IMG/VR virus record: IMGVR_UViG_3300008450_000550
Coordinates: 1 to 21,371 of that record
Length of the DNA: 21,371 bases
DNA from: a virus
Reading direction: 5' to 3' (one strand)
In this document: positions 3,423 through 18,573 of the stretch, piece after piece
Position numbering within the stretch: position 1 is the stretch's first letter
Layout of the letters: every line of letters starts with the position of its first letter
The notes under the pieces: model-generated
Databases searched by the model: none
What the model was told of the DNA's origin: nothing
What the model saw: the letters and a program-made list of their open reading frames with translations, nothing else
Program-made: the position numbers and the translations under genes

Positions 3423-4114
3423 TCCCCTGGTCCACCCGCTTCGTGTACAAAAAACTCGAAAGAATTGACACGTCGGCCGGACGTGTTTACGTTTTGCCAA
3501 ATAACGAACATGTCCCGTCGGTGACAACCATCCTGGACCGCACCAAGGACAAGGCTGCGCTCAAGGAGTGGGCCGATCGGGTTGGCCAAGCCGATGCCGA
3601 TCGCCAGAAAGCGGAGGCCTCATGGGTGGGCACGCACATGCATCTGGCACTTGAGCACATTCTGAGCGGTGAGCCGTGGGCCGTGAACCCTGACTGGCTG
3701 GCCATGAGGGGCTACGAGATGGCCTTTCGCCTGGCCAACAAGTACTTTGGCGCGATCTCCGAGATTCACGGCTCAGAAGTGTCACTGCACTACGGCTACC
3801 AGTACGCCGGTTCTACCGACCTGGTGGCCACGTACCGTGGCAAGCTGGCCATTGTGGACTTCAAACAGTCGGTCAAGCCCAAGCGCCACGAGTACATCAC
3901 CGACTACTTTCATCAGCTCGCAGCGTATGCCACGGCGCACGACTGGATGTACGGCACCAACATTGACTTCGGTGCGGTGCTGATTGCAGTGCAGGACGGC
4001 ACAACGCAGGAGTTCACCACCACGGGTCGAGAGTGGCGAAACTTCAAGACCCAGTGGATGGCGAGACTTACCTTGGCGCAGCAGGCGGCTGTTGCTGCGC
4101 TGCCATCCCGCTGA
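3410..4114 (+). CDS. PD-(D/E)XK nuclease, RecB/Cas4-like exonuclease
   Basis: The protein has 234 aa, and its ATG lies inside the last codons of the helicase gene with AGAGGAAA upstream. The nuclease core is legible: a helical motif GTHMHLALE (74-82) like the RecB-family GxxxH...E element, E123, D137 in YAGSTDL, the D150-F-K152 metal-binding/catalytic signature in AIVDFKQS, and Q169-x3-Y173 in HQLAAY. This arrangement matches RecB/Cas4-like exonucleases in phage recombination modules. There is no four-cysteine iron-sulphur cluster, unlike typical Cas4. The probable role is DNA end processing together with the helicase. The last 47 nt overlap, in the opposite direction, the end of the 1088-aa virion gene. 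Confidence 0.88.
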   Translation: MAHLIPWSTRFVYKKLERIDTSAGRVYVLPNNEHVPSVTTILDRTKDKAALKEWADRVGQADADRQKAEASWVGTHMHLALEHILSGEPWAVNPDWLAMRGYEMAFRLANKYFGAISEIHGSEVSLHYGYQYAGSTDLVATYRGKLAIVDFKQSVKPKRHEYITDYFHQLAAYATAHDWMYGTNIDFGAVLIAVQDGTTQEFTTTGREWRNFKTQWMARLTLAQQAAVAALPSR

Positions 4115-7100
4115 TGGTGTCAAACGGGAACAGCGACTGCATCATCGAGCGCGCGCTGGAGTTGGCAGGGGCGTTTGATGCACCAGGCTGGCTGGGGGCG
4201 CTTGGCGTGGGGTTGAGTCCAGGGACGCCACGGGTGCTGGGCGCTGGAGGACTCTGACGCTGCTGGCGCTGGCGCTCCTCTGTCTGGCGCAACGACTCGT
4301 TAAATTGACGCAGCTCTTGCGCTGCCCGCATCCGATCCGATGGCGACTGGCTGGTGGCGACAGGTGCAGGTTCAGGCTCGTCAAAGGTGGCATAGGTCAG
4401 CCCCGCGTTCAACATGTAGCTGTGTAGCTGTCGTGCGATCTGCAGTTTTTCCCGCTCTGTTCGCCCTTTCCTGAGGAGCAGTGCCGCGAAATTAGGGTCC
4501 TGCGCTGCTTTTTCCAGCATGATCCTGGTGTTCATGCCTGGCATCTTGTCAAACATAGAACGCACCGCTCTGGAGCCTGCGGCAGCGGCGACCAGCACAC
4601 CAGGGCCATCCGGGGCCACTGCACTACCAAGTCGCGCACCGATGACGCGCTGTATGAACTCTTCGACCGCATCGCTGCCAGGAACAATGTTGTCCAACGT
4701 CCGTCCACTGGCTATGGCTCTTTCGATGCGAACCATTGGATCGGTCAGGCGTTTAATGCCTTTCATTTCGCTCAGGGTCATGATGCCGTTGGCACGCATG
4801 ATGTTGACCACCGATGGCAGGTTCGGGCCTAGGGGCTTGAAGAAGGCCTCTTCAAAAGCCTGCGGGCTGAGGTTGCCATTAGCGTTTGTGGCCTTGGTGT
4901 ACGCGTAATCGTACAGGGACGACTTCAGTCCTCGGATGGCAGCCTCACTCTGGTCCGATTCCTTGACCATCTTAACCAGGTTCTGCATGTCCCGAACCGG
5001 TGTATTACCGTTGAGGATAGTGCCCAATGCAAGGCTGGGACGCTCCGAACCTGCTTTGATGACATTGGCAAAGGCATACTGATCAGCGGCTCGTTTCATA
5101 AGCGCGCTGTTTTGGTTTTGGACCATGCGGAAAGCGTTTTCAGCCTTAACCGTATCCCTCAGGTCAGCCGTCATCCCCAGCTTGTCCAGCATGGGCTTAT
5201 TTTCAGAAATGAATTTGTTCAACCTTGAGGTAACAACGCGCGTGACGTCACGGCCAGTCTCCGGGTCAAACCGGGTCTCAAGAGAGGCCGCCGCACCCAT
5301 ACGGAGAACACGCTGCTGAGCATCCGCCAAGGATGCCGCTCCTGCGCGCGAAACTTCAGCTGCAGGTTTGAGCGCAAGAGCTTGCGGGCTATTTACGCCA
5401 AAGGTGCGCACTGCGTCGTCGTAGCGCGTGGACATAAACTTCACTGCGCCCTCGATCTCGTTCATGCGCTGCGCAGTCACGTCGGCATTGGCTCCAAAGG
5501 CACGGCTCACCAGTATTTCGGCAGGCAGGCGCTCGGCACCGGTTCCCGTCACGCCGCCAACCGTGTTCGCGAAAGAGCGGGTAAAGACATCGTTCAAGGA
5601 CTTGGAGAACTGACGCGCCTCTTCAAACTCAGGGTTTTTGAGCGAGTTAAGGTCCTGCAGCATGCCATCGGCCATCCTGCCGTAGAAGTCAGCGTTGTTG
5701 ACGTCACCTTTCCCGGCAGCTTCACGGGACATTTTGAGCAACGTGGAGCGGTAGTTCACCAACTCGTCAACGCTTATGGGCTTGGTCTTAGGCAAGAAAC
5801 GCTGAGGAATCCTTCCCGTATCTAAAAACTCCTGCGTCTGCCGGCCCGCACGGAACCTGCTCACGGAATCTTGGTTGACTCCCATGGCGTCCATGATGTC
5901 ACGAACAGGTTTTGGAATGGCAGTATCGTACAGGGCTTGGCCTACGCTGGAAGCGCGCTCGGCAAAGCTGTTGGCGGTGTTGGTAGGGTCTATCGAAGGC
6001 GCGACATAGTCCTGCCGGGGAATGTACCGAACAATGTCTCTTCCTGTCCGAGGGTCCTGTCCTATCACAACCCTTTCTTTCGTCGTCTTAAGGCTGGGCT
6101 TGGTCAAGGAATTTAAAGCACTTTTCCAAAGGCCGCTCTCATAGTCGCGCGCGTCGCGCAGCGCGAGCTCGGTCTGCTCCTTAATCGTGGCTCCAATGGC
6201 CCTTCTTGCCTCAGGCGTGTCTTTCGTGAGCTCGGAAATCTTCAGCGCTGCAATTTTGTCAGCATCCTTCAAACGCTCGTCAAGCATGGAAGTGAAACGA
6301 GCCTCTTGTAGTTGCGCGGCCATAAACAGGGCGTCCTGAGTGCCGATGTTTTTCAGCCTGTCTGCCAGCAGTTGATACGCTTTGAAAGCCTGTCTTCCCT
6401 GCTCCCGAGACTTGGCAAGGAAGTCTTTGTTGGTCTGGCCTAAGCCCGACTCCAGTGCAATTAATCCCAAGCTGTCTGTCTTCTGCGCAGAAGTGGGCGT
6501 GATGCGGGTCCCACCCGGTACAGTATCCTTGTCGATGGGCATGTCCGCTTCTAGGCGACGAATCAAAGCGGGGATGTCCTCGCCAAACTCTTCCAGAATC
6601 GTGTACAAGCGGTTCGCGGCCCGGGCTTCTCGTGAAGCCTCGCTAAAGTTGCCTTTAATTTTCGACAGCCCGTCCATCACGGTCCCTGTCTGGTTGATCA
6701 GGAAGCGGCCTGGGGACAAGACGCCACCAACAACCTCCCCGGCAAAGCGCGTGCCAGGTGCTCCAGGGTCATAGTTCTCTGCTACGCCGGCCCCGGCACT
6801 TGCACCAAGGGCACCCATGACCTCGCTGGTTTTGAATGTCTTGGGATTGCGAATAGCTGCATCGCGAATTTCCGTGACAAACCTTCCGACACGGCTGCCG
6901 GTCATCGTGGGCAAGTAAGGAACGGCTGCCGCAAAAGGCAAACTGCCCCCAAACGTCTTACCCGCTTCTCGATAGACCTTTTTGGTGGGGTCAGTTGGCT
7001 CCGGGAAAAACCCTTTATAGGCATCCTCAGCGCTCTGCCCCGCATAAAAGCCACCGATACCGCCAGTTACCATGCCACCGATCGCCCCAAGTGGGCCAAA

Positions 7101-7334
7101 TGGCATGCCTAGCTTCAGTCCGGCCACGGCCCCAGTTACAGCCGGAGTGGCAGTGATAAGGCCCTGCCCCGCGCCCTGAGCATATTCGCCCACGCGCTCA
7201 GAAAAACTGGGTCCGGCTGACTCAAGCCACTTTGGAAGCTGGTCAGTAGACGGGCTAAATGTCTCTGTAAACCTTTGCCCCAAGGTGGAGTCAGCAGGCT
7301 CAAGCCATTGTGGAAGCTGGTTTTTTTCCGACAT
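4068..7334 (-). CDS. Large internal virion (DNA ejection) protein, 1088 aa
   Basis: The ATG at 7334 is preceded by AAGGAAG. The N-terminus holds a duplicated short motif, LPQWLE (7-12) and LPKWLE (33-38), at a 26-residue spacing. It is followed by a Gly/Ala-rich hydrophobic stretch (about 52-100) with glycine-zipper character that could insert in a membrane. The long middle is alpha-helical and charged, and the last 100 residues are Pro/Gln/Ser-rich. I see no lytic-transglycosylase motif. It is the last and largest of four consecutive large genes downstream of the nozzle-like gene, the position of T7 gp16, which supports an internal virion role by synteny rather than by sequence match. The last 16 codons overlap the nuclease gene on the other strand. 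Confidence 0.75.
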   Translation of the reverse strand: MSEKNQLPQWLEPADSTLGQRFTETFSPSTDQLPKWLESAGPSFSERVGEYAQGAGQGLITATPAVTGAVAGLKLGMPFGPLGAIGGMVTGGIGGFYAGQSAEDAYKGFFPEPTDPTKKVYREAGKTFGGSLPFAAAVPYLPTMTGSRVGRFVTEIRDAAIRNPKTFKTSEVMGALGASAGAGVAENYDPGAPGTRFAGEVVGGVLSPGRFLINQTGTVMDGLSKIKGNFSEASREARAANRLYTILEEFGEDIPALIRRLEADMPIDKDTVPGGTRITPTSAQKTDSLGLIALESGLGQTNKDFLAKSREQGRQAFKAYQLLADRLKNIGTQDALFMAAQLQEARFTSMLDERLKDADKIAALKISELTKDTPEARRAIGATIKEQTELALRDARDYESGLWKSALNSLTKPSLKTTKERVVIGQDPRTGRDIVRYIPRQDYVAPSIDPTNTANSFAERASSVGQALYDTAIPKPVRDIMDAMGVNQDSVSRFRAGRQTQEFLDTGRIPQRFLPKTKPISVDELVNYRSTLLKMSREAAGKGDVNNADFYGRMADGMLQDLNSLKNPEFEEARQFSKSLNDVFTRSFANTVGGVTGTGAERLPAEILVSRAFGANADVTAQRMNEIEGAVKFMSTRYDDAVRTFGVNSPQALALKPAAEVSRAGAASLADAQQRVLRMGAAASLETRFDPETGRDVTRVVTSRLNKFISENKPMLDKLGMTADLRDTVKAENAFRMVQNQNSALMKRAADQYAFANVIKAGSERPSLALGTILNGNTPVRDMQNLVKMVKESDQSEAAIRGLKSSLYDYAYTKATNANGNLSPQAFEEAFFKPLGPNLPSVVNIMRANGIMTLSEMKGIKRLTDPMVRIERAIASGRTLDNIVPGSDAVEEFIQRVIGARLGSAVAPDGPGVLVAAAAGSRAVRSMFDKMPGMNTRIMLEKAAQDPNFAALLLRKGRTEREKLQIARQLHSYMLNAGLTYATFDEPEPAPVATSQSPSDRMRAAQELRQFNESLRQTEERQRQQRQSPPAPSTRGVPGLNPTPSAPSQPGASNAPANSSARSMMQSLFPFDTISGMAAQQQPPAAPR
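7255..7318 (-). repeat. Short direct repeat encoding duplicated LP(Q/K)WLE motif
   Basis: Two near-identical stretches on the minus strand encode QLPQWLEPADSTLGQRF and QLPKWLESAGPSFSERV at the start of the 1088-aa protein. On the plus strand they read CTCAAGCCATTGTGGAAGCT near 7299 and CTCAAGCCACTTTGGAAGCT near 7221. The period is 26 codons (78 nt). The listed interval lies between and around these copies and is approximate. Confidence 0.6.
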
Positions 7335-7343
7335 AAAACTTCC

Positions 7344-9383
7344 TTAGCGTTGCGGAATCTTGCCAAGTGTGGTTCCATTGAACAACACGAATGTACCAGG
7401 GGGGTAGAGCAGGGACTCTTCGTAGGTCGTCACAACAGGGGGAAGGTCCAACAGCTTGTAGTGCTGGCGGTACTCCGAAGCCTTTTTACGCGCCAACGCC
7501 TTGTCCTCAGGCTTTAATCCCGAACCTTCTCGGCCCTGGCTCTCCAGCTCTTGAATCATGTCTCTAAGAGTGCCGCCCAATGCAATGAGCTTGTTGCCGT
7601 AAGCATCGCCGCCCCTTGCCGCGCTAGGGATGATCCCAATCACTGGGGCCAATCGCTCTTGTTCCCTGACGCTACCCTGGGCGCTCTTAAGCAGCGCTTC
7701 AACAACACGCTCAGCCTGTTGTTTGGCTCTTTGGCGCGCTATGGCAACGTCGGAAAATGGAGCACCCGCTCCTGGGATTTGAGAGATCACATCTTTCGCG
7801 GTATTGATTGGCCCGGAAATAAGGTCTCTGTTTTGCCAAAGAGAAAACGTAGGAGCGTTTTCTTGCGGTCTTGCAGGACGTGTTGTGATAGGCTGGCTGC
7901 TCACGCTGTCTTCGCCGTAAGGCGCACCGGGATCACTCTGGTCGACAGAAACGTCGCGGCCGGGCTGATCAACAGGCGCGCCCTGCCCTGTCGGAGCGGT
8001 CTGCCTTGTCGGAGCGCCTGAACCCATTACGCGAGGCAGTGACTTGCGCACTTCTCTGTACCCCAATATCGTTTTTTCCACGGGGTCAATAATTGGCACT
8101 GGAACAGCGCGGGTGTAGTGATCCTCTGCTAAAGACAGGATTCTTTCCTCTTCTGGAGTAATGGTGCCGTTCTCGCGCTTTGGACCCAGTGTCGCAAACG
8201 TATCCAGCATGCGGCCTTCCAGGCTGTTGCCGAACATGCCTGTGCCTGCACCCGCTTTCTTGGCTCCTATTTTCTTGGCCTCGATTCTTGCTTGGGAACG
8301 CAGCACCTCGTTGAGCAAATTTCCCTTGCGCTTTTGCAACTCGCTGTTCTGGGCATTGATCTTGTCAATGTCCTTCTCGCCTTGCTGCAGTGCCAAGGTT
8401 TTGATCTGACGGTCGATCTGGGTGATCTGGTCAAGCTGTCGGCCCATAGCGGCGGGCAATGTTCGTGTGGCCCCTGCCAAACGGGACATAAAGCTGCCGG
8501 TCAATGGACGGCCTGCCTCGTCTGTGTTTGCAGCGAAGCCAAAGGCCCGTTGTCCAAGGTCAAACAGCATCTGTGCCTGCATGGCATTCCTGTCCGGACC
8601 CAACAGTCGGTTGAGCGTAGGCAGGCGAGACGCAACTGCTTCGTCCAGGGTTGGGGCTCTTCTTGGCTGCTCGTTAAACAAGCCCATGGCTTGCTGGCGT
8701 GCAGCATCCACCATCTCCTGCGGGAACATCATGGACTCTTCAGAAGGCGCTTGTTGAGCGACGGGGGTCACGCCTTCTTCATCTGACCCGTCGCTAAAAT
8801 TTTGGACGAGCCCACCTTTGGCCATTGCAACTGGCGGCTGGTCAGAGGCAGGTGCTCCGCCGCCCATGCCTGCCATCAGCTCGGCGATACCGCCTTGCTG
8901 GGGAGGTGGAGGCATGCCAGCATCAGGAGGCAGCGGGGGCATTCCAGGAGGCGGCATGCCCATGTCAGCAGGCACTGGAGGCATACCGGGTGGGGGCATG
9001 CCAGGAGCACCGCCTATCATCGGGGCCTGTGGTCCTTGAGCCATGGCCTGTGACTGAGGCAACGCGGCGATACCGCCCTGCTGCGCCAAAACAGGCTGCA
9101 GCATCGCGAGCACGGTCTCAGGCGTTTCAATGGCAGCCTGATAACCAACAAGATCGGCCAACTCGTCACGGCGCGCGTCAATTGAACGCATGTCGCCACG
9201 CAGGTTGTTCATCAAGATTTCTGGTGTGTTGGGACGACGCTCCAACATTGCCTCGGGGCTGTCGCCCTCATCATCGCCCTCGTTTTCGTCGTCATCATCC
9301 TCGGACATGGAGTCCATAAAGCCCTGCATGATGCCGACGTTTTCGACGTCGTCGTCTTCTTTCTTCATCATTCTCTTGTTCAT
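7344..9383 (-). CDS. Virion-associated low-complexity protein, 679 aa
   Basis: It starts at ATG 9383 with AAGAGG upstream and is separated from both neighbours by 9 nt. Domains in order: a very acidic N-terminus (Asp/Glu runs in residues about 8-45), a helical segment, a Met/Pro/Gly-rich region with repeated GMPPPGMPP-type units (about 125-170), the motif MAKGGLVQNFSDGSDEEGV, a charged helical middle (about 290-400), a Pro/Thr/Gln linker, and a helical C-terminus ending in a small beta segment (PPGTFVLFNGTTLGKIP). The AKGG-type motif recurs in the 663-aa protein encoded nearby. Position among the large late genes points to a structural or internal virion role. No enzyme motif is visible. Confidence 0.75.
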   Translation of the reverse strand: MNKRMMKKEDDDVENVGIMQGFMDSMSEDDDDENEGDDEGDSPEAMLERRPNTPEILMNNLRGDMRSIDARRDELADLVGYQAAIETPETVLAMLQPVLAQQGGIAALPQSQAMAQGPQAPMIGGAPGMPPPGMPPVPADMGMPPPGMPPLPPDAGMPPPPQQGGIAELMAGMGGGAPASDQPPVAMAKGGLVQNFSDGSDEEGVTPVAQQAPSEESMMFPQEMVDAARQQAMGLFNEQPRRAPTLDEAVASRLPTLNRLLGPDRNAMQAQMLFDLGQRAFGFAANTDEAGRPLTGSFMSRLAGATRTLPAAMGRQLDQITQIDRQIKTLALQQGEKDIDKINAQNSELQKRKGNLLNEVLRSQARIEAKKIGAKKAGAGTGMFGNSLEGRMLDTFATLGPKRENGTITPEEERILSLAEDHYTRAVPVPIIDPVEKTILGYREVRKSLPRVMGSGAPTRQTAPTGQGAPVDQPGRDVSVDQSDPGAPYGEDSVSSQPITTRPARPQENAPTFSLWQNRDLISGPINTAKDVISQIPGAGAPFSDVAIARQRAKQQAERVVEALLKSAQGSVREQERLAPVIGIIPSAARGGDAYGNKLIALGGTLRDMIQELESQGREGSGLKPEDKALARKKASEYRQHYKLLDLPPVVTTYEESLLYPPGTFVLFNGTTLGKIPQR
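8908..9010 (-). repeat. Coding repeat for Met/Pro/Gly units
   Basis: Within the 679-aa gene, a GGAGGCATGCC/GGCGGCATGCC-like unit recurs several times on the plus strand and encodes repeats of the type GMPPPGMPP and AGMPPPP. The units are irregular in length. This looks like expansion by replication slippage of a disordered linker. Confidence 0.6.
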
Positions 9384-9392
9384 ATCGACCTC

Positions 9393-11192
9393 TTAGAAAA
9401 GTTTCAGGCCTGCTCTTTGAGCGCCAGCGGCAGTGGAAATTGCCCCCAGGCCAATGCCCAGGGCTTGCTGGAATGGGCTGGCGGTAGGCGTGCTCACGAC
9501 ACTCGTTTGCATCTGCGAGGACGGCGCGCCCCTGTAAATGTCCGACAAGAAACCTGCTTGTTGGTAAGGCGCGTAGATTTGTTGCATCTGCGTGGCCCGA
9601 GTGGCGTCGAGCGCTTGCTGGTTGAGCGCCTGGCGAGCCTGACCTGTGTTGAACAAGAAGTTGATGTCGCCTTGCTGCATGCCTTGCGCGGTCTGGCCAA
9701 GAGCTGCCTGCTGCACACCCAACTGACCAAGCTGACCGGCCATCGCGCCAAGGCCCTGGGCCTGCTGTTGGCCAATGCCAAACTGCTGGCCAGCCAAGCT
9801 GCCGATACCTTGGCCCAGCTGCTGGAACTGCTGCCCCTGTTGGCCAAAGATGCCAGCGGCCGTCTGGGCTGCCTGGTTGCGCGCCTGGGCCTGCTGCATC
9901 AGCAAGTTGGAAATGTTTTGGTTGATGGCTGCCTCCTGGCCTGCCAGTGCACCGCCCTGAGAAGCCAGATTGCCATACTGTTGGCCAGCCTGCAAGAACT
10001 GACCGGCAGCGCCCTGACCCAACTGAGCCTGCTGCACGCCGAGATTGCCCAACTGGCTGCCAGCCTGCACACCCAACTGAGCCTGCTGCGCGCCCAACTG
10101 GCCGATGCCTTGGCCAGCTTGCATCTGACGCTGCTGTTGCTGCTCAAACGCGTTCATGGCCTGCGCCTGTGACTGGCCATAGCCCTGCGACAAGAGATTG
10201 GCGATCGTGGATGCGCGCTGGTCCATCAGGTTGCGCTCCATCTCAGCACGCTGCACGCCTTCTCGCTCACCACCAAACGCGCCCGATCGAACGGCTTGAG
10301 CCGCCAAGCCCTGCCCAGCAATCGCACCTTGGCGATTGATCTGGCGTATGGTCTCGTCAATGACCTGCTGGCGGTAAGGGTCCATGAACGCTTGAGCGGA
10401 ACGTGGATCGTAGCCCTGAGCTGCACCGCCGAGTGCGCCAATGCCCATGCCCAACGTTTGCTGGCCTTGCAGCAGGCCCATGCCGATGGTGGATGTAGCA
10501 GGGTTGAGGTTTGCTTGGCTGGAGCCCGCAGCAAGGTTCTGGGCCGTGGACAACGCGCCAAGGCCCGATTGCAAATCCTGGCGAGCAGCGCCAAACTGCC
10601 CAGTGGTGTCGGACATCGCAGCACGCCTTGCAGCGCTGTCCAAGTAGCTCAAGCCTTCACCGATTTGGCCGATGCCTGCAGTGGTGTTGGCAGCGGCCTG
10701 GCCAGCTTGGCGCATCGCGGCCTGTGCGTCAAAGAACTGGTTGCGGGTGTCTGCGCCACGCAGCACATCTGCTGCTTCGCCCGTAGTGTTGTAAGCAGAC
10801 TGCAAGGCAGTATTGGCGCTCTCCAAGTAGGGGTTAAACGCCCCGATGCCCTGGCGAGCAGCCGCATCCAATGCAGCTTGCTGAGCCGGCGTAAAGGCTG
10901 CTACGTTGAAGGCAGGCAGTTGAGAAGCAAGGCTGGGGCGATTAGGAGAAGCGCGTCCTTCTGCTGCACCAAACTCACGGAAATGCTTTGCAGCAAACTG
11001 CTCAGCTGACAAACCGCCTGGGTTTGCCTTGAATGCGGCAGCGACATCTGGGTTTTGCTGGAAATACCGAGCAGCACCTTCTCTGTCTGGACCACCAAAA
11101 GCCAAGTTCTCCGCCTGCTCCATCAGGCGGAGTTTTGCCTTCTCAATCTCCGGGCTTTCTTGGACTATCTGTGTTTGTGTTGTCGTTGCCAT
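9393..11192 (-). CDS. Gln/Ala/Gly-rich internal virion-type protein, 599 aa
   Basis: The ATG at 11192 directly follows the stop of the upstream gene (TAAATG), with AAAGGGGAAA as ribosome binding site. Residues 43-80 form a compact unit, YFQQNPDVAAAF...HFREFGAAEGR, which resembles the roughly 40-residue 'NPDV...GxxEGR' repeats I remember from bacterial secreted and surface proteins; here it occurs once. Residues about 90-330 are Ala-rich helices. Residues about 350-520 consist of degenerate QQAQLGxxAG-type repeats with an 18-residue period, predicted to be long amphipathic helices. The C-terminus ends in a hydrophobic Gly/Ala segment. This composition recalls membrane-spanning ejection proteins. 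The function is inferred from composition and gene order. Confidence 0.75.
   Translation of the reverse strand: MATTTQTQIVQESPEIEKAKLRLMEQAENLAFGGPDREGAARYFQQNPDVAAAFKANPGGLSAEQFAAKHFREFGAAEGRASPNRPSLASQLPAFNVAAFTPAQQAALDAAARQGIGAFNPYLESANTALQSAYNTTGEAADVLRGADTRNQFFDAQAAMRQAGQAAANTTAGIGQIGEGLSYLDSAARRAAMSDTTGQFGAARQDLQSGLGALSTAQNLAAGSSQANLNPATSTIGMGLLQGQQTLGMGIGALGGAAQGYDPRSAQAFMDPYRQQVIDETIRQINRQGAIAGQGLAAQAVRSGAFGGEREGVQRAEMERNLMDQRASTIANLLSQGYGQSQAQAMNAFEQQQQRQMQAGQGIGQLGAQQAQLGVQAGSQLGNLGVQQAQLGQGAAGQFLQAGQQYGNLASQGGALAGQEAAINQNISNLLMQQAQARNQAAQTAAGIFGQQGQQFQQLGQGIGSLAGQQFGIGQQQAQGLGAMAGQLGQLGVQQAALGQTAQGMQQGDINFLFNTGQARQALNQQALDATRATQMQQIYAPYQQAGFLSDIYRGAPSSQMQTSVVSTPTASPFQQALGIGLGAISTAAGAQRAGLKLF
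9660..10110 (-). repeat. Degenerate coding repeats (18-codon period, QQAQLG units)
   Basis: Repeated CAACTG/GCCTGCTG-type words fill this stretch. An exact 18-nt copy, CCCAACTGAGCCTGCTGC, occurs at 10018-10035 and 10072-10089, 54 nt apart, which matches the 18-residue protein period. The copies have diverged elsewhere, mostly by substitutions that keep Gln, Ala, Leu and Gly. Because it stays in frame, it is part of the gene and not an independent element. Confidence 0.75.
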
Positions 11193-13184
11193 TTATTTCC
11201 CCTTTACAGGACCGCCTTCAAGCATCTTCATGAGTTTATACATGCGCGCTGCGCCTTTGCGGCGACTTCCTGCGCCAGCGTTGCGCACTGCCTTGGCGGT
11301 GAATACAAACTCGCCATCCGACAGCATGGCTGGGATGTCGTCCGAGGTCCCAGTGCCGGGGCCGCTAATCGGCCCAGTTTTGCGAGGGAAGTTCGTAGGC
11401 ACGGGCGCACCGCCCTTGGCAAAGTTTTGTATTGGCATCTGCCCGTAAACCATGGGCACGCCATACATGCCTGCAACGTTGTAAGGCTGCGCTACGCCTG
11501 ATGGGGTACGTGTGATGCCGGTGGGCACAACTGGTGCAGCGGTCATAAACGGCATCGCTGCAGAGTAATCTGTCGCCACGATCGGATTAAAGTTGGGATC
11601 GAGCGTAGGAGACTCCAGGCCAAAACCTCCTCCTCTAATGAGCTGGTCGCGCTCTTTAGCCCGTTGCACAGACTCGTTGTATCGGTCGGTCTCAGCCTTC
11701 GAAATAGGGTTGGTGTTGTCCTTGGCCTTGAAGCCGCCCAGCGCACCTGCCCCGAGGAGGCCCAGGCCGATCTTTGGAATCAGGCCCATGCCTGCGGCCG
11801 CTGCAGGGGCTGCGGCAGTAGCAGCTGCCGTGCCGCCCGCTCCTACAGCACTCACTGTGCTGGGGGTCAACGCGGCAGTAGGAGCGGCAGCGGTAGCAGG
11901 ACCAAACATCCGACTGAAGAAGCCTTGGGACTCGGTGCCCGCAGGTGCTGCGCCAGGAATGTTTGGAGAGCCAAACGACATCCGCTGATCCGGGATGGTC
12001 GAAAGCATACTTCTGGCTGTGCCGTCGCTTTGCATGCCCGAGAACGGACTCTCTGGTTGCATGCCTATCTGAGATTGGGGCTGAGCAGATGCACTCGGGG
12101 TTCCGGCTCGCGAGTTTTCAAGGCCCTGCAGCGCAGCAGCGGACAAGCCTGACATCAGGCCAGACTTCAGAGCATCCTGAGTGCTCATGCCACCAAGTTT
12201 GCCGATACCGGCTCCCAAGATACCCGTGGCCAAGCCTGTGTTTAACGCACTGCCTGCAGCACCTGGCAGGAAGCGGCTGAGCGTGCCCATGGGGCTGAAT
12301 CCGCCGATAGTGCCGCCGCCGCCAAAGTAGCCAGTGGCACCTGCCATCAGGGCCTCTTTAAGGTTACCGCCACCAGCCAGAGTCACGCCACCAGACACCA
12401 AAGCGGCGGTTCCCGCTTTGCCCAGCGTCATACCGACAGCCGTTGGTCCGAGGACAGCGGCCAAACCCACTGTGGCCAAGACACGGCCAACAGGGTTCTG
12501 GAGCACCTTCTTGAGGGCGCTGCCGATCTTCTTGAAAGCCTTCTTGAGAAAGAACTCAGGCAGGCCTGTAACAGGGTTGATCGTGCCCGAGCCGCCACGG
12601 CTCTTGAGCAACCGGGCTTCATCTGGGGTAATGTGAGCCAGCATGGTGTCGCCATTGCGACCCTGAGCGGCCAGGTAAGACGCCACGTCGGCCAAACCGC
12701 CTCGGGCCATGGCCAACGGTTGAGTTCCGTCGAGGCCCTGCATGGCATCTACCCCCTGCACAGGAGGCACGTCCGTCATGGGGGCCTGTGCCCCTTCAAA
12801 CTGCATCAGCTGCATTTCATGCAGGAGGGAGATCAGTGCGCCCAGGAACTCTGGGTCGTACTCTTCCGGCATGTCTTCGGGGTCGATGACGTCGGTATTG
12901 ATGAGGTTTTGACGCAGCTGGTTGTACTCAGCGGGGTTCTGAGACATGTAGACCAGGGTCTCAAGCAAGGAACTGATCTCGTTCGGTGACAGTTCCACGT
13001 CAGCCAGGCTCTCGCGCATGGCCTGCTTGAGGGCAGCGTACTCCTCGGGGCTGCGCTCCTGGAGCACTGTTTGGGCTGCGTCGTAAGAGTCAGCGCTTGA
13101 AACAATGGGACGGTCGTCCGCAGGCGCTTCGCTCTGCATGGGCATGCCGTCTTGGGGCAGCGCCATGATTCCTTCATTTACCAT
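11193..13184 (-). CDS. Modular virion protein with membrane-active-like segment and tape-measure-type C-terminus, 663 aa
   Basis: It starts at ATG 13184 behind AAAGGAC. Domains in order: an acidic helical N-terminus (1-130); MARGGLADVASYL (159-171), then GDTMLAHITPDEARLLK and GGSGTINPVTGLPEF (about 178-211); a cationic amphipathic helix FLKKAFKKIGSALKKVL (212-228); a long Gly/Ala hydrophobic region (230-350); Ala/Thr/Pro linkers; AKGGAPVPTN; and a C-terminal unit (604-663) with GPGTGTSDDIPAMLSDGEFV. From memory, that last unit occurs at the ends of many phage tail or tape-measure-like proteins. The amphipathic-plus-hydrophobic centre would suit insertion into the host envelope during DNA ejection. 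It leads the four-gene cassette and has its own predicted promoter and structured leader. Confidence 0.78.
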   Translation of the reverse strand: MVNEGIMALPQDGMPMQSEAPADDRPIVSSADSYDAAQTVLQERSPEEYAALKQAMRESLADVELSPNEISSLLETLVYMSQNPAEYNQLRQNLINTDVIDPEDMPEEYDPEFLGALISLLHEMQLMQFEGAQAPMTDVPPVQGVDAMQGLDGTQPLAMARGGLADVASYLAAQGRNGDTMLAHITPDEARLLKSRGGSGTINPVTGLPEFFLKKAFKKIGSALKKVLQNPVGRVLATVGLAAVLGPTAVGMTLGKAGTAALVSGGVTLAGGGNLKEALMAGATGYFGGGGTIGGFSPMGTLSRFLPGAAGSALNTGLATGILGAGIGKLGGMSTQDALKSGLMSGLSAAALQGLENSRAGTPSASAQPQSQIGMQPESPFSGMQSDGTARSMLSTIPDQRMSFGSPNIPGAAPAGTESQGFFSRMFGPATAAAPTAALTPSTVSAVGAGGTAAATAAAPAAAAGMGLIPKIGLGLLGAGALGGFKAKDNTNPISKAETDRYNESVQRAKERDQLIRGGGFGLESPTLDPNFNPIVATDYSAAMPFMTAAPVVPTGITRTPSGVAQPYNVAGMYGVPMVYGQMPIQNFAKGGAPVPTNFPRKTGPISGPGTGTSDDIPAMLSDGEFVFTAKAVRNAGAGSRRKGAARMYKLMKMLEGGPVKGK

Positions 13185-13188
13185 GATA

Positions 13189-13243
13189 GTCCTTTCCAGT
13201 TTTTGCCAGTAGCCTCACGTGGGGCTGCGCGCCGGGAAAGGAC
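13189..13243 (-). promoter_or_regulatory. Predicted 5' leader stem that can sequester the ribosome binding site
   Basis: In minus-strand RNA, GTCCTTTCC (13243-13235) is exactly complementary to GGAAAGGAC (13197-13189), which contains the Shine-Dalgarno sequence of the 663-aa gene. The 37-nt spacer holds a second inverted repeat (13211-13226) of the form AGCC-c-CACGTG-a-GGCT. The pair would fold into a two-level stem-loop hiding the ribosome binding site. The predicted transcription start lies about 9 nt before the first arm, so the whole structure would be the leader. Regulation is inferred from pairing only. Confidence 0.45.
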
Positions 13244-13258
13244 GCGTGAATGGCTGAA

Positions 13259-13288
13259 ATTATCCAACAAAAAGTCAAGTTTTGTCCA
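13259..13288 (-). promoter_or_regulatory. Predicted sigma70-type promoter for the internal-virion gene cassette
   Basis: On the minus strand TGGACA (13288-13283) and GATAAT (13264-13259) each differ from the consensus hexamers by one base and are 18 nt apart. They lie in the 108-nt gap before the 663-aa gene, the only substantial non-coding space in the late block. This is the best promoter match I found in the window. Start of transcription would be near 13252. Confidence 0.65.
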
Positions 13289-13292
13289 CTCT

Positions 13293-13625
13293 TCATGACC
13301 GGTCTATCTCTAGAAAGGACAAGTGAAAGTCAACTGTAGACACGCTAGAGGTCACTTTTAAGATGTCGCCGGTTTCCAAAATGCAGGGAACGCCGCTAAA
13401 AGCGTCCATGGTTTGGCTCGTGGGCAGCGAATAACCCTTCAGCAGTGCGAAGGCCGTGGCCCCGCCGCTGGGGAACACGTTGATGGCCAATGTGGCCACG
13501 GACGCATTGCGATTGGTCACGCGCAGGGACGAGACAACGGCCGTATTGGCGGCGGGAACCGTGTAAAGGGTTGTCTCCGTGGCCGCTGCCGGGGTCAAAT
13601 TCTTGCGTAAGTACTTGTTTGCCAT
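13293..13625 (-). CDS. Small beta-rich virion protein, 110 aa
   Basis: The ATG at 13625 lies 2 nt after the stop of the preceding gene, so translation is probably coupled; its own ribosome binding site is weak. The sequence alternates short hydrophobic strands and turns (ETTLYTVPAANTAVVSSLRVTN, VATLAINVFPSGG, ETGDILKVTSS) and contains no helical or membrane segment. It has the look of a single beta-sandwich domain, such as a head-decoration, neck or fibre-associated protein. Similar small proteins next to tail genes are common in phages. The exact position in the particle cannot be told. Confidence 0.75.
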   Translation of the reverse strand: MANKYLRKNLTPAAATETTLYTVPAANTAVVSSLRVTNRNASVATLAINVFPSGGATAFALLKGYSLPTSQTMDAFSGVPCILETGDILKVTSSVSTVDFHLSFLEIDRS

Positions 13626-13627
13626 GG

Positions 13628-14341
13628 TCAGCCCGCTGAAACAAAGTTGATCGTCAGAATTACTGAGGGAATCGCGGGCCGCGTGGGGCTCACGTTAGCA
13701 GCGTAATGCTCCAAATACACGTCAATGTTCCCCGACCACCATGCGATCTGAAGGTAATTCACAGAAGGGTCGGTGACGGTAAAGATACCTGTAATGGCAG
13801 GCACTATGTGGGAGTAAACGCTTTCGCTTTTACGTGCAGGTATATCAAACCTGGTGTTGCTCGAGGGGTAGTTAACGCCTGTGTCCTTGGCCCAAACCTC
13901 AAACTCCGCCCCGGCGTTGCTGCGGTTTGACACCTGCAGCGTAAACGTCACCAGATACTGGCCCGAGCAGGGGACGTAAATCTTACTGTTGTCCACCACA
14001 CGAATGCCGTTGGACAGCGCCACGGTGTCAAAGGTCAGAATGTTTTCACTGGTGATGCCCGCGCTGGCCTGATCCACGTTGGACAGCAGCATGGCGTGAG
14101 GCTGCAGAATGCCGTTGGACAACTGAAAGCCCCGAAGGCCTCCGGCAAAGCCGCCGCCAGCTCCGCCGCCCATGCCCATCCAAGTGGCCGCAGCCGCAGT
14201 GTCCTGGCTCGTGACAGGGGTGTAGGTGTTGTTGAGCTGAAGGATGATCTGCTCAAGCGAACGCACCAACTGGTTGAACTGAGCCGGGTCGTAGCCCCCA
14301 GTTGACGCGTTGGGCAGACGAACGTTGGTGATCTTGCTCAT
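13628..14341 (-). CDS. Virion protein with C1q/TNF-like jelly-roll domain, 237 aa
   Basis: The ATG overlaps the previous stop (ATGA at 14341-14338). The N-terminus (1-50, MSKITNVRLPNASTGGYDPA...) is helical and probably anchors the protein. Residues about 54-72 are a glycine-rich linker (MGMGGGAGGGFAGGLRGF). Residues about 85-235 alternate beta strands: NGIRVVDNSKIYVPCSGQYL, VTFTLQVSN, a central TGIFTVTDPSVNYLQI and a terminal SVILTINFV. That pattern matches C1q/TNF-like jelly rolls, which usually trimerise and bind ligands. The likely role is an exposed decoration or receptor-contact protein. The fold is assigned by eye from strand pattern. Confidence 0.75.
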   Translation of the reverse strand: MSKITNVRLPNASTGGYDPAQFNQLVRSLEQIILQLNNTYTPVTSQDTAAAATWMGMGGGAGGGFAGGLRGFQLSNGILQPHAMLLSNVDQASAGITSENILTFDTVALSNGIRVVDNSKIYVPCSGQYLVTFTLQVSNRSNAGAEFEVWAKDTGVNYPSSNTRFDIPARKSESVYSHIVPAITGIFTVTDPSVNYLQIAWWSGNIDVYLEHYAANVSPTRPAIPSVILTINFVSAG

Positions 14342-16191
14342 CGGATGCCGTCCGGCTGGATGTCGACACGCATCGTGCCAAAGCGCCAGTTGGTATCCAA
14401 ATCGCTGCTCTCAATGCGCAGTTGAATTTGGCGTCCCCGCGCACGCGTGTCCACTTTGTCAGTGGTGGGCGTGATGATGTACGGGTCCAATGAGCTTGGC
14501 GTGGCGCTGGTCTGTGGATACAGACGCAGCAGCAAGCGTACCGTGATGTTGCCCACTTGGTTCTTGAAGTCAGGGATAAACCGCTTCATGAACAGCACTT
14601 GTTCGCCGTCACCGATGTCAAAATACCCAGAGTAAATGTGGGCGTCGATCGGCAGGCCGTCGTCGTTTACGCCCGTCTCCTGGTTGTACAGGATGGCCCT
14701 GCCAGGGGTAAGCCCAATGATCGGGGTAAGACTTGCCTGTGTTGCCTCAGGATCGTACTTGGCGGCCAGAGGACGGGGGAACGCCCCGGTGTCCCGCCAC
14801 GCAGTTCGGGCCAGTGTGCCAATAGACCAGACGTTTTCCAGGTAGTTGTACGTCACCGATCGATTGACATACAAGCTGTCAGCAGTGGGGTAGTACCACG
14901 TCACCTCATTGAACTGGGTGTTGATGCCCACGTTGACCGAGAACCCTTGGTTAAGGTTGATGTTGTCGTAGACGTAGTCTTGGACAGAGGACGGGATTTT
15001 CTTGACCGTACCGTCGAACACAAAGAAGGCGTCCTTGCTCATCCAGTACGCCACGCCGTTGACGTCAGCGCAGGCGTGGGGGCCGATGATGCCGCAGTTG
15101 GCTCCCAGCTGCTGGAAGCCAAAAGTGTAGGGTGGGCCAATGTACTGCTGGCCGTGCAAGGCCGTGTCTGTCCAAATCAAAATCTGACCGCGCGATCGCA
15201 AGGCCGAGACGATTTCGTTGCCGTCCGTGAGCCGTTGTCCGCCGGCCGTGTTGGTCGCTGTGGCAACAAACTCCCCGATGTTCTCTTGGCTTGAATAGCG
15301 CACAAACATCGGGTCCTGGCTGGTTGGATCACCGAGCACGGACTCTGTGCCAAAGCAAACCAAGTGCCGGTCAGGCGTGGAGATCACGGCAAACGTGCTT
15401 CTTGTTGGCGCGCCTGCAATGACCGTGGCCCGTGTTGTAAGGCCTGAGGCAGGGGACCACTGGAATATCTGCCCGTTCACAAGCTGCATGACCAGGTCTT
15501 CGCCGTAGTTGTCAAACTGCCAGACGCGAGAGCCGAGGGCAAGGCCCAAGACTGTAGGCGGACGAGGCGTGTTCCAAGCAAAGGCGTTCCACGAGCCAGT
15601 GTTCCAGCCGTAATCAAAGAAACTCACGTCGCTGCCAACGTTGATTTGGTACACGGCGTTTGCCGTGCCTGCAGTAGTGGCGGTGGACGTAGCAGCGGCG
15701 GGGGACAGGATTGTGTACTGGCTGCCGCTCAAGATTTGCTGAATCTCAAACTCGTTTGTCAGGTTCGCATTAGAGATGCCGCCAGGGTTGCCTGTGACGG
15801 TGTTGAATGTCACAAAGTCTCCGACCACCGCGCCGTGAGCGGCGTCGTTGACAACGACCGTGGTTGAGCCGTTGGTTGTATTAAACGTGACCGTGTCAGT
15901 AGCTCGGATGGGAGTAATGTCCGCCCAGTCCCCACCGTAATAGACATAGACCTTTCGGTTGGTGCCGAGAACCATGTAAGGGGTCCCGTCCAGTGCGTTC
16001 CAGGTAAAGACCTCGGAAACAGTCCCTACAAAATAAATCTGTGGGCTGTTAAACGACTCCCAGCCGCCGATCTTCTCGGGCAGGCCGTAACGGAACCGCA
16101 CAAAGTCAGCGTCTACCCAGCCGCCTTCTGCACCGTATTCGGTGTTCTGCTTGTCAACGCCTGGTTTGAGGAAGAGTCGCAAGAGGGCCAT
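14338..16191 (-). CDS. Tail nozzle / packaged-DNA stabilisation-like protein, 617 aa
   Basis: It starts at ATG 16191 with AAAGGGG upstream. The N-terminus LFLKPGVDKQNTEYGAEGGW followed by DFVRFRYGLPEKIGGWE (30-45) is typical of phage proteins I associate with P22 gp10-like packaged-DNA stabilisation or T7 gp12-like nozzle proteins. The body is almost all beta, with repeated WxxG/FxxYxx segments suggestive of a propeller. Length lies between P22 gp10 and T7 gp12. It precedes the large internal-virion genes in transcription order, as T7 gp12 does. The assignment to the nozzle rests on motif memory and synteny; a neck or fibre-connector protein is the alternative. Confidence 0.7.
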   Translation of the reverse strand: MALLRLFLKPGVDKQNTEYGAEGGWVDADFVRFRYGLPEKIGGWESFNSPQIYFVGTVSEVFTWNALDGTPYMVLGTNRKVYVYYGGDWADITPIRATDTVTFNTTNGSTTVVVNDAAHGAVVGDFVTFNTVTGNPGGISNANLTNEFEIQQILSGSQYTILSPAAATSTATTAGTANAVYQINVGSDVSFFDYGWNTGSWNAFAWNTPRPPTVLGLALGSRVWQFDNYGEDLVMQLVNGQIFQWSPASGLTTRATVIAGAPTRSTFAVISTPDRHLVCFGTESVLGDPTSQDPMFVRYSSQENIGEFVATATNTAGGQRLTDGNEIVSALRSRGQILIWTDTALHGQQYIGPPYTFGFQQLGANCGIIGPHACADVNGVAYWMSKDAFFVFDGTVKKIPSSVQDYVYDNINLNQGFSVNVGINTQFNEVTWYYPTADSLYVNRSVTYNYLENVWSIGTLARTAWRDTGAFPRPLAAKYDPEATQASLTPIIGLTPGRAILYNQETGVNDDGLPIDAHIYSGYFDIGDGEQVLFMKRFIPDFKNQVGNITVRLLLRLYPQTSATPSSLDPYIITPTTDKVDTRARGRQIQLRIESSDLDTNWRFGTMRVDIQPDGIR

Positions 16192-16193
16192 TT

Positions 16194-16352
16194 TTACCCC
16201 TTTGCAGCGCGCATATTGTCAACTAAGTTGGGGTATGGACGACCTGCTTTTTTGGCTGCAGCTTTTGCAGAAGCCTTCTTGGCGGGTGTCAGAGCCTTGG
16301 GCTTTCCAAGGCTCTTAGGGCGTTTCTTGTCCCAAACTGGCGTGGTTTTCAT
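16194..16352 (-). CDS. Small basic Lys/Ala-rich protein, 52 aa
   Basis: A complete frame runs from ATG 16352 to TAA 16196-16194, with GGAG 6 nt before the start. It fits exactly between the endolysin and the nozzle-like gene, ending 2 nt before the latter. The N-terminus is MKTTPVWDKKRPKSLGKPKA, the middle is a run of Lys/Ala-Ala-Lys, and the end reads GRPYPNLVDNMRAAKG. About a quarter of residues are lysine. I recall short phage proteins ending in this GRPYPNLVDNMRAA pattern. Nucleic-acid or capsid-interior binding is suggested by charge, but nothing proves it. Confidence 0.78.
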   Translation of the reverse strand: MKTTPVWDKKRPKSLGKPKALTPAKKASAKAAAKKAGRPYPNLVDNMRAAKG

Positions 16353-16399
16353 AAAAGGCTCCAGTTAACAAAATTTGGTGGTATGCGGCATTTTCGCAC

Positions 16400-16915
16400 T
16401 TAACTCAGGAAAAGGGCAATCTCAGCCTCGCGGCGCTTGACCAGACCCGGCAAGACCTTACCGCCACCTTTCGTCCAGACCCGGAACGCCTCGGCTGCAC
16501 CCTGCCAATCCCCCCGGTTGGCCCGCATCCTGATGGTGCTGCGCTGGAGGTTGCCTAACCCAAAATTGAAGGATATAGAGACCAGAGCGTCAAAGCTGCC
16601 TTGACGCCCAACCACGCCGGGAACAAGACGAAGAACACCCCGTTCAAAAGTTCCGACATCAGCGCGGAATAGTTCGTCGATCTCCGTTTTCGTCCAAACA
16701 CGGTTGTCCTCCGGTTTCAGTGGGTACTCTTTGCGGATCATGGGAATGTCAGCCTGCGTCTTGCCTTCTGGTCGAACCATCGGGAGCCTGATCTGCTCTT
16801 GGTACAGGACGTGGCCGTAGCCAATCGTCCAGATGTGGGCTGGGCAAAGGTAGGGCCGAGAGCGAAAGCCCTCGTACTTGTGCATCAAGTCTTCCCCGGC
16901 TTTGGACAGCTTCAC
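16400..16915 (-). CDS. Endolysin, GH24 (T4/P1-type) lysozyme
   Basis: GTG at 16915 overlaps the holin stop (GTGA) and has GGAG 6 nt upstream, so I take this start (171 aa); a TTG four codons earlier is also open. The active-site pattern E-x8-C-x5-T is present as E15, C24 and T30 within YEGFRSRPYLCPAHIWTIGYGH. A Cys in the second position, instead of Asp as in T4 lysozyme, is also found in phage P1 Lyz. The enzyme would cleave the glycosidic bonds of peptidoglycan. There is no signal peptide or SAR segment, so it should need the adjacent holin for release. An extra segment of roughly 30-35 residues follows the IGYGH motif compared with short T4-type enzymes. Confidence 0.92.
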   Translation of the reverse strand: MKLSKAGEDLMHKYEGFRSRPYLCPAHIWTIGYGHVLYQEQIRLPMVRPEGKTQADIPMIRKEYPLKPEDNRVWTKTEIDELFRADVGTFERGVLRLVPGVVGRQGSFDALVSISFNFGLGNLQRSTIRMRANRGDWQGAAEAFRVWTKGGGKVLPGLVKRREAEIALFLS

Positions 16916-17415
16916 TTCTTGCTCCAAGTCCTGCTTCCGAACCAGAACCCAAGGATGCCGCCCAGCATGGCCATCTCATCGCTGGAAAAAATCAGGTCAG
17001 AGTAGCGGATTACGTCGTCAATGTTCTGAATCAGGCCCGGCTGCTGGTACAGATACCAAGCCATGAAAGCGTTGATCGCCACCAACTCCAACACGAAGAT
17101 GTAAGTGACCGTGGGGCGCACAGTGCCCACGTAGCTGGACACCCAAGAGCCAGCCTTCTCCAGCACCTTGGCGTCATGAGCCAGCGCAGCCTCGGTCATC
17201 CGGGCGTCAGTTTCCATTGCCACCTGCTCGGTGCGAATCTCCTCCACACGGGCTTGGGCCGCGAAGCCAGCAGCGGCCAGTTGGAGTTCACGTTCGGTCT
17301 GCACACGGGCCAGAGCCAGCTCGTGCTTTTGGTCGGCCTTGTTCTGGAAGTATTCCAGCAGCTTTGGCAAGCCGGAGATCAGCAGCCCCCCGAGGGTAGA
17401 AATGAGTGAAAGCAT
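16912..17415 (-). CDS. Holin, three-TM (GTA holin-like) family
   Basis: The real start is ATG 17415 (AAGGGG upstream, TGATG junction with the preceding gene), giving 167 aa. There is a hydrophobic N-terminal segment (3-22), a long charged coiled-coil stretch (24-90), then W91...VRP101, a TM helix (103-122) and a C-terminal hydrophobic segment (148-160) ending FGSRTWSKK. The W-x-RP-TM ... FG-R-EK/SK layout matches the 3-TM holin family named after gene-transfer-agent release. It would make the inner-membrane lesion that lets the endolysin out. It overlaps the endolysin start by 4 nt, which strongly supports a lysis role. Confidence 0.78.
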   Translation of the reverse strand: MLSLISTLGGLLISGLPKLLEYFQNKADQKHELALARVQTERELQLAAAGFAAQARVEEIRTEQVAMETDARMTEAALAHDAKVLEKAGSWVSSYVGTVRPTVTYIFVLELVAINAFMAWYLYQQPGLIQNIDDVIRYSDLIFSSDEMAMLGGILGFWFGSRTWSKK

Positions 17416-18032
17416 CAGTTGCCCCTTTTGGTTAGCATAGCGCTGGCAATCTCCAGCATGAATTTGACTTGCTGGACGTCTTGCGGAGGCTCTGTCCAGC
17501 CCACCGTAATCTGTCCAACAAACCGGTGGTTGTCTGGCGGAACGCTTACCCGGCAGGTGTACGCCACGCCCTTTTCCAAGTACCACAGTCCTACCTCGGA
17601 TTGGGCATAGCGGTATTCCCCGCAAGGAATTTCGTTGGTCATCAACCGCACCACGTCCGAGTTGTTGGCCGAGTTCTGACTGAAGAGGCCTACGTCGATG
17701 TCTTCAATGCTCTTGTCCCGGCCGTCCTTCGTGTAGGCCCGGTAAACCGTCCTGCTGTTAAACAGCGGGTTGACCCTGAACACCGCTACCACCGTTGCCC
17801 CTGTCTTCTTCATCAACATGGAGCCCACATCATCGGCCCTTGAGGCGTTGATCTCTGGCAGCTTCTTGGACTCTTTGTAGGCGTCTAGCATGAAGGTTTG
17901 GTTCTGCCATAGGAAGTAGCCCGCAAATGCAATCACGCCCATCAAAATGATGGCGAACAGTTTAAATGGCGAGTCCACATACCCGAGCACCTTGTCTAGG
18001 GTTGTATTGGCGTTTAACTTTTCGTCGCTCAT
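17415..18032 (-). CDS. Membrane-anchored periplasmic protein, possibly GAF-like; lysis-cassette member
   Basis: The ATG at 18032 overlaps the preceding stop (ATGA), and its own stop overlaps the holin start (TGATG). The 205-aa product has a short charged cytoplasmic N-terminus, one TM helix (23-42, FKLFAIILMGVIAFAGYFLW) and a periplasmic domain of about 160 residues with two cysteines (C137, C160). The strand/helix pattern GATVVAVFRVNP ... GVAYTCRVSVPPDN ... FVGQITVGWTEPP ... FMLEIASAML reads like a GAF-type domain. I do not recognise a named family. Its place next to the holin suggests an antiholin or lysis-timing sensor, or an envelope function; this is inference. Confidence 0.8.
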   Translation of the reverse strand: MSDEKLNANTTLDKVLGYVDSPFKLFAIILMGVIAFAGYFLWQNQTFMLDAYKESKKLPEINASRADDVGSMLMKKTGATVVAVFRVNPLFNSRTVYRAYTKDGRDKSIEDIDVGLFSQNSANNSDVVRLMTNEIPCGEYRYAQSEVGLWYLEKGVAYTCRVSVPPDNHRFVGQITVGWTEPPQDVQQVKFMLEIASAMLTKRGN

Positions 18033-18475
18033 CGGATGTACTTGAAGTAGATTACAAGACCGTAAATCAACAGGGCAGCCAAGACAAGAGAGGCCATGCC
18101 AATGGCAATGTACTCAATTAGCTGTGCTATCTGTGCTGCTCTACGGGCCTTCTCGCGTTTGAGTGCTTCAGCGTCCTCTCTGCGTTTACGGGCAGCTTGG
18201 GCCTGAAACTTCTGCCAGTCGCCCCACATCCCCGGACGGCCTGCGTAGACCATGCGCTCACGCAGCTCTTCTTCTTGCTGCCTAAGCCGCTCCAAGGCCA
18301 TGAATTCCTCAAGATCAGAGCCGCCGCCTTTTTTGGTGACAGACTCCTGAATCTTGGCCTTGTTGTCGAAGTAGTCAAAGACCCGTGAACCGAGCTGGTG
18401 CAGCTCCTTGCCGTTTGCCAGAGCACCTTTTATTACTGCAAAGGCCGCATTGGCGGCGGCAATTTCTGCCAGCAT
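18029..18475 (-). CDS. Conserved coiled-coil membrane protein, 148 aa
   Basis: It starts at ATG 18475 with GAGGTG upstream. The N-terminal helix (MLAEIAAANAAFAVIKGALA) is followed by a charged coiled coil (about 54-115, rich in Arg/Glu/Gln) and one C-terminal TM helix (119-143) with a short basic tail. I recall the N-terminal pattern from conserved phage proteins without firm function. Its position just before two further membrane proteins and the holin suggests a role in lysis or envelope handling. A spanin is not supported: inner-membrane spanins have an N-terminal TM helix and a periplasmic C-terminus. The stop overlaps the next start by 4 nt. Confidence 0.8.
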   Translation of the reverse strand: MLAEIAAANAAFAVIKGALANGKELHQLGSRVFDYFDNKAKIQESVTKKGGGSDLEEFMALERLRQQEEELRERMVYAGRPGMWGDWQKFQAQAARKRREDAEALKREKARRAAQIAQLIEYIAIGMASLVLAALLIYGLVIYFKYIR

Positions 18476-18478
18476 ACT

Positions 18479-18571
18479 TCACCTCAAAACAAGAAAAACG
18501 GCCCGAACCGTCCAGATTGTCAACGCCACCAGACTGGCCGCTGCAACGAAGGCAACGCACCAGTCTTTCAT
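18479..18571 (-). CDS. Predicted 30-aa single-TM peptide
   Basis: ATG 18571 opens a frame of 30 codons ending in TGA at 18479. It begins 2 nt after the stop of the propeller gene and ends 3 nt before the start of the coiled-coil membrane gene, the tight packing seen across the block. The peptide is MKDWCVAFVAAASLVALTIW followed by TVRAVFLVLR: a single hydrophobic helix with basic residues near the C-terminus. The ribosome binding site is poor (GGCGGGAA, rather distant), so translation would rely on coupling. It could be a tiny holin/antiholin-type or membrane-targeting peptide, or a chance frame. Confidence 0.5.
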   Translation of the reverse strand: MKDWCVAFVAAASLVALTIWTVRAVFLVLR

Positions 18572-18573
18572 GA

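Follow-up and report, generated by a model that had tools for sequence, protein, structure and literature searches.

A conserved promoter and tandem-hairpin leader, predicted to close a Shine-Dalgarno site, before a probable ejection-protein cassette of uncultivated water phages

In the leader of the maturation gene of bacteriophage MS2, the equilibrium fold hides the Shine-Dalgarno sequence (SD), and a shorter hairpin in the newly made RNA leaves the SD open for a time (reviewed in PMC6071253). The leader considered here, located before a four-gene cassette of a viral DNA, is similar in that its SD is predicted to be hidden at equilibrium and open in nascent RNA. It is also a likeness that the product of the MS2 maturation gene is a low-copy virion protein, as described in the same review (PMC6071253). 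The MS2 sequence, however, belongs to the genome of an RNA phage (levivirus), whereas the present leader belongs to a dsDNA phage mRNA made from its own promoter, and in the latter the loop of the early hairpin is itself the anti-SD. The second system is the put RNA of phage HK022, of ~70 nt, which is reported to act on RNA polymerase without dedicated proteins (PMC9378689). Two stem-loops immediately past a phage promoter are common to put and to our locus; however, the length of ~70 nt and the long stems of put are not found here, as both hairpins (P2 and P4) together span 36 nt (13246-13211), the SD follows them directly and one of the loops is complementary to it. The third is the operator of T4 gene 32, also from a dsDNA phage, where a structured 5′ leader with a pseudoknot lies upstream of the initiation region. 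According to PMC535899, the T4 structure 5′ of the SD recruits gp32, whereas in the present leader a loop is predicted to pair directly with the SD, and the leading gene of the cassette encodes a probable structural protein.

The window, i.e., the whole stretch of DNA analysed, is the virus record IMGVR_UViG_3300008450_000550 of 21,371 bases. Of the named relatives, Phage DSL-LC04 (OR003939) is the nearest; it is a freshwater phage assembled from a metagenome, for which a new family was proposed and whose TerL was placed near those of Pelagibacter phages (PMC10611076); the family name leads in the literature to this same paper. The minus-strand block of the window consists, in order, of genes for a 617-aa structural protein (phrog_3287) and for proteins of 237 and 110 aa, a 108-nt gap, and genes for proteins of 663, 599, 679, and 1088 aa (Table 1). 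In DSL-LC04, four large genes of similar order stand after the leader, the first annotated as tail tape measure protein and the last as DNA transfer protein. Pfam gave no match for any of the four cassette proteins of the window, and in the 663-aa protein only a short C-terminal stretch was linked to tape-measure proteins (PHROGs and a profile search of PDB chain sequences). An “internal virion” identity of the cassette is plausible, and the four genes probably form an ejection-protein cassette. An earlier note on this DNA regarded the 108-nt gap as the only large one in the late block, which turned out to be not quite correct. The ORF table leaves ~98 nt free at 18476-18573, between the 441-aa and 148-aa ORFs, where a terminator-like hairpin with a T-run is located (18513-18496, minus strand), and ~208 nt at 16192-16399, which hold an ORF below the table’s 60-aa minimum. 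At the far end of the cassette, the 1088-aa ORF (4068-7334, minus strand) and an exonuclease ORF (3410-4114, plus strand) are convergent, with a 47-base overlap at their 3′ ends.

Table 1. Positions of the leader elements and cassette genes in the window (sequences are given in the sense of the minus strand).
Feature	Position	Strand	Basis or remark
-35 hexamer TGGACA	13283..13288	(-)	TGGACA or TAGACA in 131/138 leaders
-10 hexamer GATAAT	13259..13264	(-)	NATAAT in 133/138 leaders, CATTAT in 4
Predicted transcription start, ~7 nt past -10	13250..13252	(-)	Inferred from general sigma-70 spacing
P1 5′ arm GCCA (tentative), mostly upstream of predicted start	13251..13254	(-)	Swap test 0/1000
P1 3′ arm UGGC (tentative)	13205..13208	(-)	Swap test
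P2 5′ arm CGCGUC	13241..13246	(-)	Outer four pairs formed in 138/138 leaders
P2 loop CUUUCCC, contains most of anti-SD arm	13234..13240	(-)	Leader parse
P2 3′ arm GGCGCG	13228..13233	(-)	Leader parse and alignment
Single unpaired C between P2 and P4	13227..13227	(-)	Leader parse
P4 hairpin AGCC..GGCU (CACGTG hairpin of the earlier note)	13211..13226	(-)	Top covarying pairs
P3 5′ arm (anti-SD), overlapping P2 5′ arm and loop	13235..13243	(-)	Exact complement of 13189-13197
P3 3′ arm GGAAAGGAC	13189..13197	(-)	Contains Shine-Dalgarno AAGGA (13190-13194)
663-aa ORF, first cassette gene	11193..13184	(-)	C-terminal motif common to tape-measure proteins
599-, 679-, 1088-aa genes, nearly contiguous, downstream of 663-aa ORF	4068..11192	(-)	ORF table

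The promoter of the earlier note (TGGACA, 18 nt, GATAAT) is present on the minus strand where it was placed. It is the sole minus-strand promoter-like site within 3500-21371, a region with two such sites on both strands vs. 6.1 ± 2.2 in shuffles. Across 138 distinct leaders parsed overall, all with the same promoter and a ~60-nt leader before the same gene, the spacing between the -35 and -10 hexamers is 18 nt in 119, as in the window, and 17 nt in 15. General sigma-70 spacing puts the transcription start ~7 nt past the -10 hexamer. The first hairpin begins 10-13 nt past the end of the -10 hexamer in 137 of the 138, which argues that the promoter’s transcript has the leader at its predicted 5′ end. 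In three relatives (L002, L047, and L060), the -35 hexamer (TAGACA) lies inside the final codons of the gene upstream, the promoter being overlaid on the gene end.

The distribution of the element was followed in several ways. A protein-seeded scan gave 67 IMG/VR loci, and gene starts were read in 51 of them; together with DSL-LC04, the -10 hexamer and the leader stand before the same gene in 52/52. This set is unbiased, unlike alignment A1 (104 leaders), which was selected by a DNA pattern. A degenerate DNA pattern matched at least 120 contigs, and divergent leaders were obtained by deeper protein scans. The covariance model found the leader in 19/80 and 61/84 of the relatives’ loci, once in each. 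When 20 records were searched whole, 19 gave a single strong match, with no further one below E 0.01, and the three weak extra hits inspected are unlike the leader. The exception, G015, comes from a lineage that lacks the leader; 19 relatives in the tree lack it, for which two changes on the tree are needed. In G015 the model has a single, weak match (locus L494, around 146-210; E 0.016), to a strong hairpin of another kind located just upstream of another gene, and in the very distant loci L393, L399, L401, and L405 a recurrent stretch of a different type precedes the gene, with a short inverted repeat (CAGG/CCTG), unlike the leader. Rfam 15 had no match at the gathering threshold for the window and nine relatives’ loci, a 601-nt stretch gave noise only (E 5.3), and no description of this leader was recognised in a literature search at the level of titles and abstracts. 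As judged from sequence comparison, the element is a strongly conserved RNA fold of uncultivated water phages, outside the catalogued RNA families (Rfam).

When the leaders are compared, the predicted 5′ end of the transcript is seen to carry P2 and P4, two hairpins in tandem, and their structure is well supported by the aligned sequences; P2 came to light through the divergent leaders. The P2 consensus is CGCGUC(CUUUCCC)GRCGCG, and its stem occurs as CGUGCC/GGCACG, CACGUC/GACGUG, CGCGUU/AACGCG, CAUGC/GCAUG, and other variants. In 51 of the 51 aligned leaders P2 is paired, with both-side changes at three of four pairs; in the 138 leaders pairs 2, 3, and 4 have changed on both sides with pairing kept. 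P4 is the nested hairpin pointed out earlier, and it covaries significantly. Under a tree-aware null, P4 pairs are the top two with plain MAFFT columns (51 leaders; E ~0.3 over all pairs, ~0.002 scaled to the 21 tested) and the top three with parsed columns (137 leaders; E 0 to 0.08). The parsed columns were set by the parse, which favours P2/P4, and one of the 138 leaders, without the 1-nt gap between the hairpins, was dropped. P2 is weaker under the same null (set-wise best E ~0.02 with MAFFT columns and 0.4 with parsed columns), because it rarely changes and offers few double changes. The wobbles are also informative, although inherited cells are counted many times: on the sense strand, G-U outnumbers A-C by 96 to 1 in P2 (828 cells) and by 27 to 3 in P4 (fixed columns, 415 cells), which argues that the element acts as RNA of the mRNA sense. 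This asymmetry, together with double changes that preserve pairing, speaks against an element acting as DNA, i.e., as a binding or packaging site, which we regard as highly improbable even if the strong sequence conservation includes the promoter and the additional helix P1 is free of strand bias. P1 exceeds swapped pairs in complementarity (0/1000; 27 representatives) and only ~60% of its cells are paired (alignment A4); given this, the absence of strand bias and a 5′ arm mostly upstream of the predicted start, it is kept as tentative only.

The gap between P2 and P4 is exactly 1 nt in 131 of the 138 leaders when parsed without a gap bonus (137/138 in an earlier parse that favoured it), and the nucleotide is C in all 131. 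Such a pair of stem-loops with one unpaired nucleotide between them, fixed 10-13 nt past the -10 hexamer where a long late transcription unit begins, and kept where the SD pairing is lost, could be expected if the module acted on RNA polymerase leaving the promoter, so that the ~9-kb transcript would resist pausing and termination and the SD pairing would be secondary. PutL is likewise described as two stem-loops just past a promoter (PMC9378689). Nonetheless, P2 and P4 are far smaller than the ~70-nt put RNA, there is one copy per genome, at this gene only, and the complementarity between the P2 loop and the SD would be left unexplained; a put-like action seems distinctly unlikely.

This complementarity is exact: 13235-13243 is the complement of 13189-13197, which includes the SD, as the earlier note had read it. 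AAGGA is located 5 nt upstream of the ATG at 13184, and the anti-SD arm is made of most of the P2 loop and three P2 stem bases. The pairing, P3, is formed in 99.6% of cells of A1 with no double change, but the invariance of its arms there is partly by construction, because the pattern used for pre-selection held both of them. Compensatory changes between the two arms, to which the earlier note had looked for evidence, did not emerge: the main group has near-invariant arms, nothing convincing was seen in 104 and 138 leaders, true pairs do not exceed swapped ones in complementarity among the 20 leaders whose loops are non-canonical (1400/2000 swaps as good), and the covariation test on parsed columns (137 leaders) gave no covarying P3 pair. 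Both-side P3 cells of one alignment were set aside, as they came from divergent leaders with non-corresponding columns. In the L020 group both sides are changed, and six pairs are left (GUCCUU/AAGGAC). By these comparisons P3 is nearly invariant, with no compensatory evolution evident.

Several lineages have P2/P4 but no P3, and the loss of P3 is usually joined by the loss of matching bases in the SD flank. Loss of the loop CUUUCC goes with loss of the flank GGAAAGG: of 4 independent pairs, 3.5 go in the same direction and none in the opposite one (sign test p 0.125, of low power). In the protein tree, for which 122 of 145 rows were kept after removal of near copies, P3 occurs in both deep halves of the family. 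It is the persistence of P2/P4 where P3 is lost that makes a second role for these hairpins, besides the SD pairing, probable. One proposal is that the leader is an operator, in which a phage or host protein would bind P2/P4 and repress or activate translation, possibly in an autogenous manner as for T4 gene 32. This would agree with deeply conserved hairpins adjoining the SD and with one target per genome, and the T4 gene 32 operator is indeed described as a 5′ pseudoknot plus the initiation region, with some T4-like phages apparently lacking the pseudoknot (PMC535899); since the proposal names no candidate binding protein, we consider it rather unlikely.

The folding predictions concern the SD more directly. 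The single-sequence fold of 13252-13160, proposed as a check in the earlier note, reproduced the SD pairing, but with an ordinary energy (z -0.71; 45 of 200 shuffles fold as well), which would be insufficient by itself to support the claim. In 40 sampled leaders, the mean predicted SD openness is 0.016, and it rises to 0.35 if the 7-nt loop is shuffled and to 0.50 if the shuffling covers the whole stretch; most relatives thus keep, far beyond chance, the leader’s ability, claimed at the outset, to bury the first gene’s SD. The same comparison bears on the idea that the leader merely stabilises the 5′ end of the mRNA, the SD complementarity being a by-product of a pyrimidine-rich loop. P2 begins ~5 nt past the predicted start and persists where P3 is lost, as would be expected for a stabiliser; however, the rise of SD openness from 0.016 to 0.35 on shuffling the loop and the joint change of loop and SD flank make this idea improbable. 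P3 is still favoured, owing to the burial of the SD beyond shuffles, its presence in both deep halves of the tree, and the joint loss of loop and flank.

In the 114 leaders with a canonical loop, the predicted probability of P2 falls from 0.95 in nascent RNA, before the SD emerges, to 0.02 in RNA extending through the ATG, with an SD openness of 0.01 (below 0.2 in 113 of the 114). The predictions thus include both the paired SD of the equilibrium fold and the alternative nascent hairpin with a free SD known from MS2. In the 24 non-canonical leaders P2 is predicted to change from 0.94 to 0.79, with an SD openness of 0.31. Extending the fold by 33 nt of coding sequence gives an SD openness of 0.10 for the 114 canonical leaders (0.01 before), vs. 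0.33 for 23 others. For the window, the SD-closed fold is predicted at -21.2 kcal/mol vs. -13.8 for P2+P4 at 37 °C, and at -31.4 vs. -24.7 kcal/mol at 15 °C. Elsewhere in the window, genes with an SD-like motif range in predicted openness from 0.08 to 0.91, the lowest value being that of the 679-aa gene, whose SD is also mostly paired by this measure. The folding program handles only pseudoknot-free structures, so a knot joining the outer P2 pairs and P3 is equally possible. The earlier description of a plain SD-burying helix was right as to this capacity and missed P2, which uses part of the same arm and is more deeply conserved. As P2 either competes with the SD pairing or is knotted into it, the leader is better described as two-state.

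We propose, as the reading with the best support, that this is a conserved cis-acting bistable leader with its own promoter, with P2/P4 formed and the SD open in nascent RNA and the SD closed in finished RNA, which would time translation of the cassette; we hold this to be about evenly balanced between right and wrong. The order of folding in the cell, the effect on translation, and the coupling to later genes are what we infer. The emerging RNA would fold into P2 and P4, one nucleotide apart, and the SD that follows would be free. After the SD emerges, the P2 loop UCCUUUCC would pair with the SD stretch GGAAAGGA, and in this closing P2 would either unzip or keep its outer pairs while a pseudoknot forms. 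Ribosomes could then load only in the window of time after synthesis, or upon re-opening of the leader, and the outcome may be that synthesis of the 663-aa protein is limited or timed, and through coupling that of the three later proteins as well. The second role of P2/P4 might be protection of the 5′ end, or binding of a protein or of RNA polymerase. In a broader form, which is possible but doubtful, the leader would represent a new dual-function class, in which a compact two-hairpin RNA at the 5′ end binds a virion protein or engages the machinery of transcription or decay, while its first loop serves as a delayed anti-SD.

Tailed phages need low-copy ejection and tape-measure proteins, in amounts far below that of capsid protein. 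To our knowledge, little has been described on how dsDNA phages set the dose of these proteins after transcription. Here, a conserved promoter and a predicted bistable leader stand at exactly such a gene, in well over a hundred distinct leaders, and the natural variants that lost only the SD pairing provide ready-made controls for a reporter test. If the broader, dual-function reading holds, the leader would determine how much ejection protein each transcript yields across a large phage lineage that is almost unstudied.
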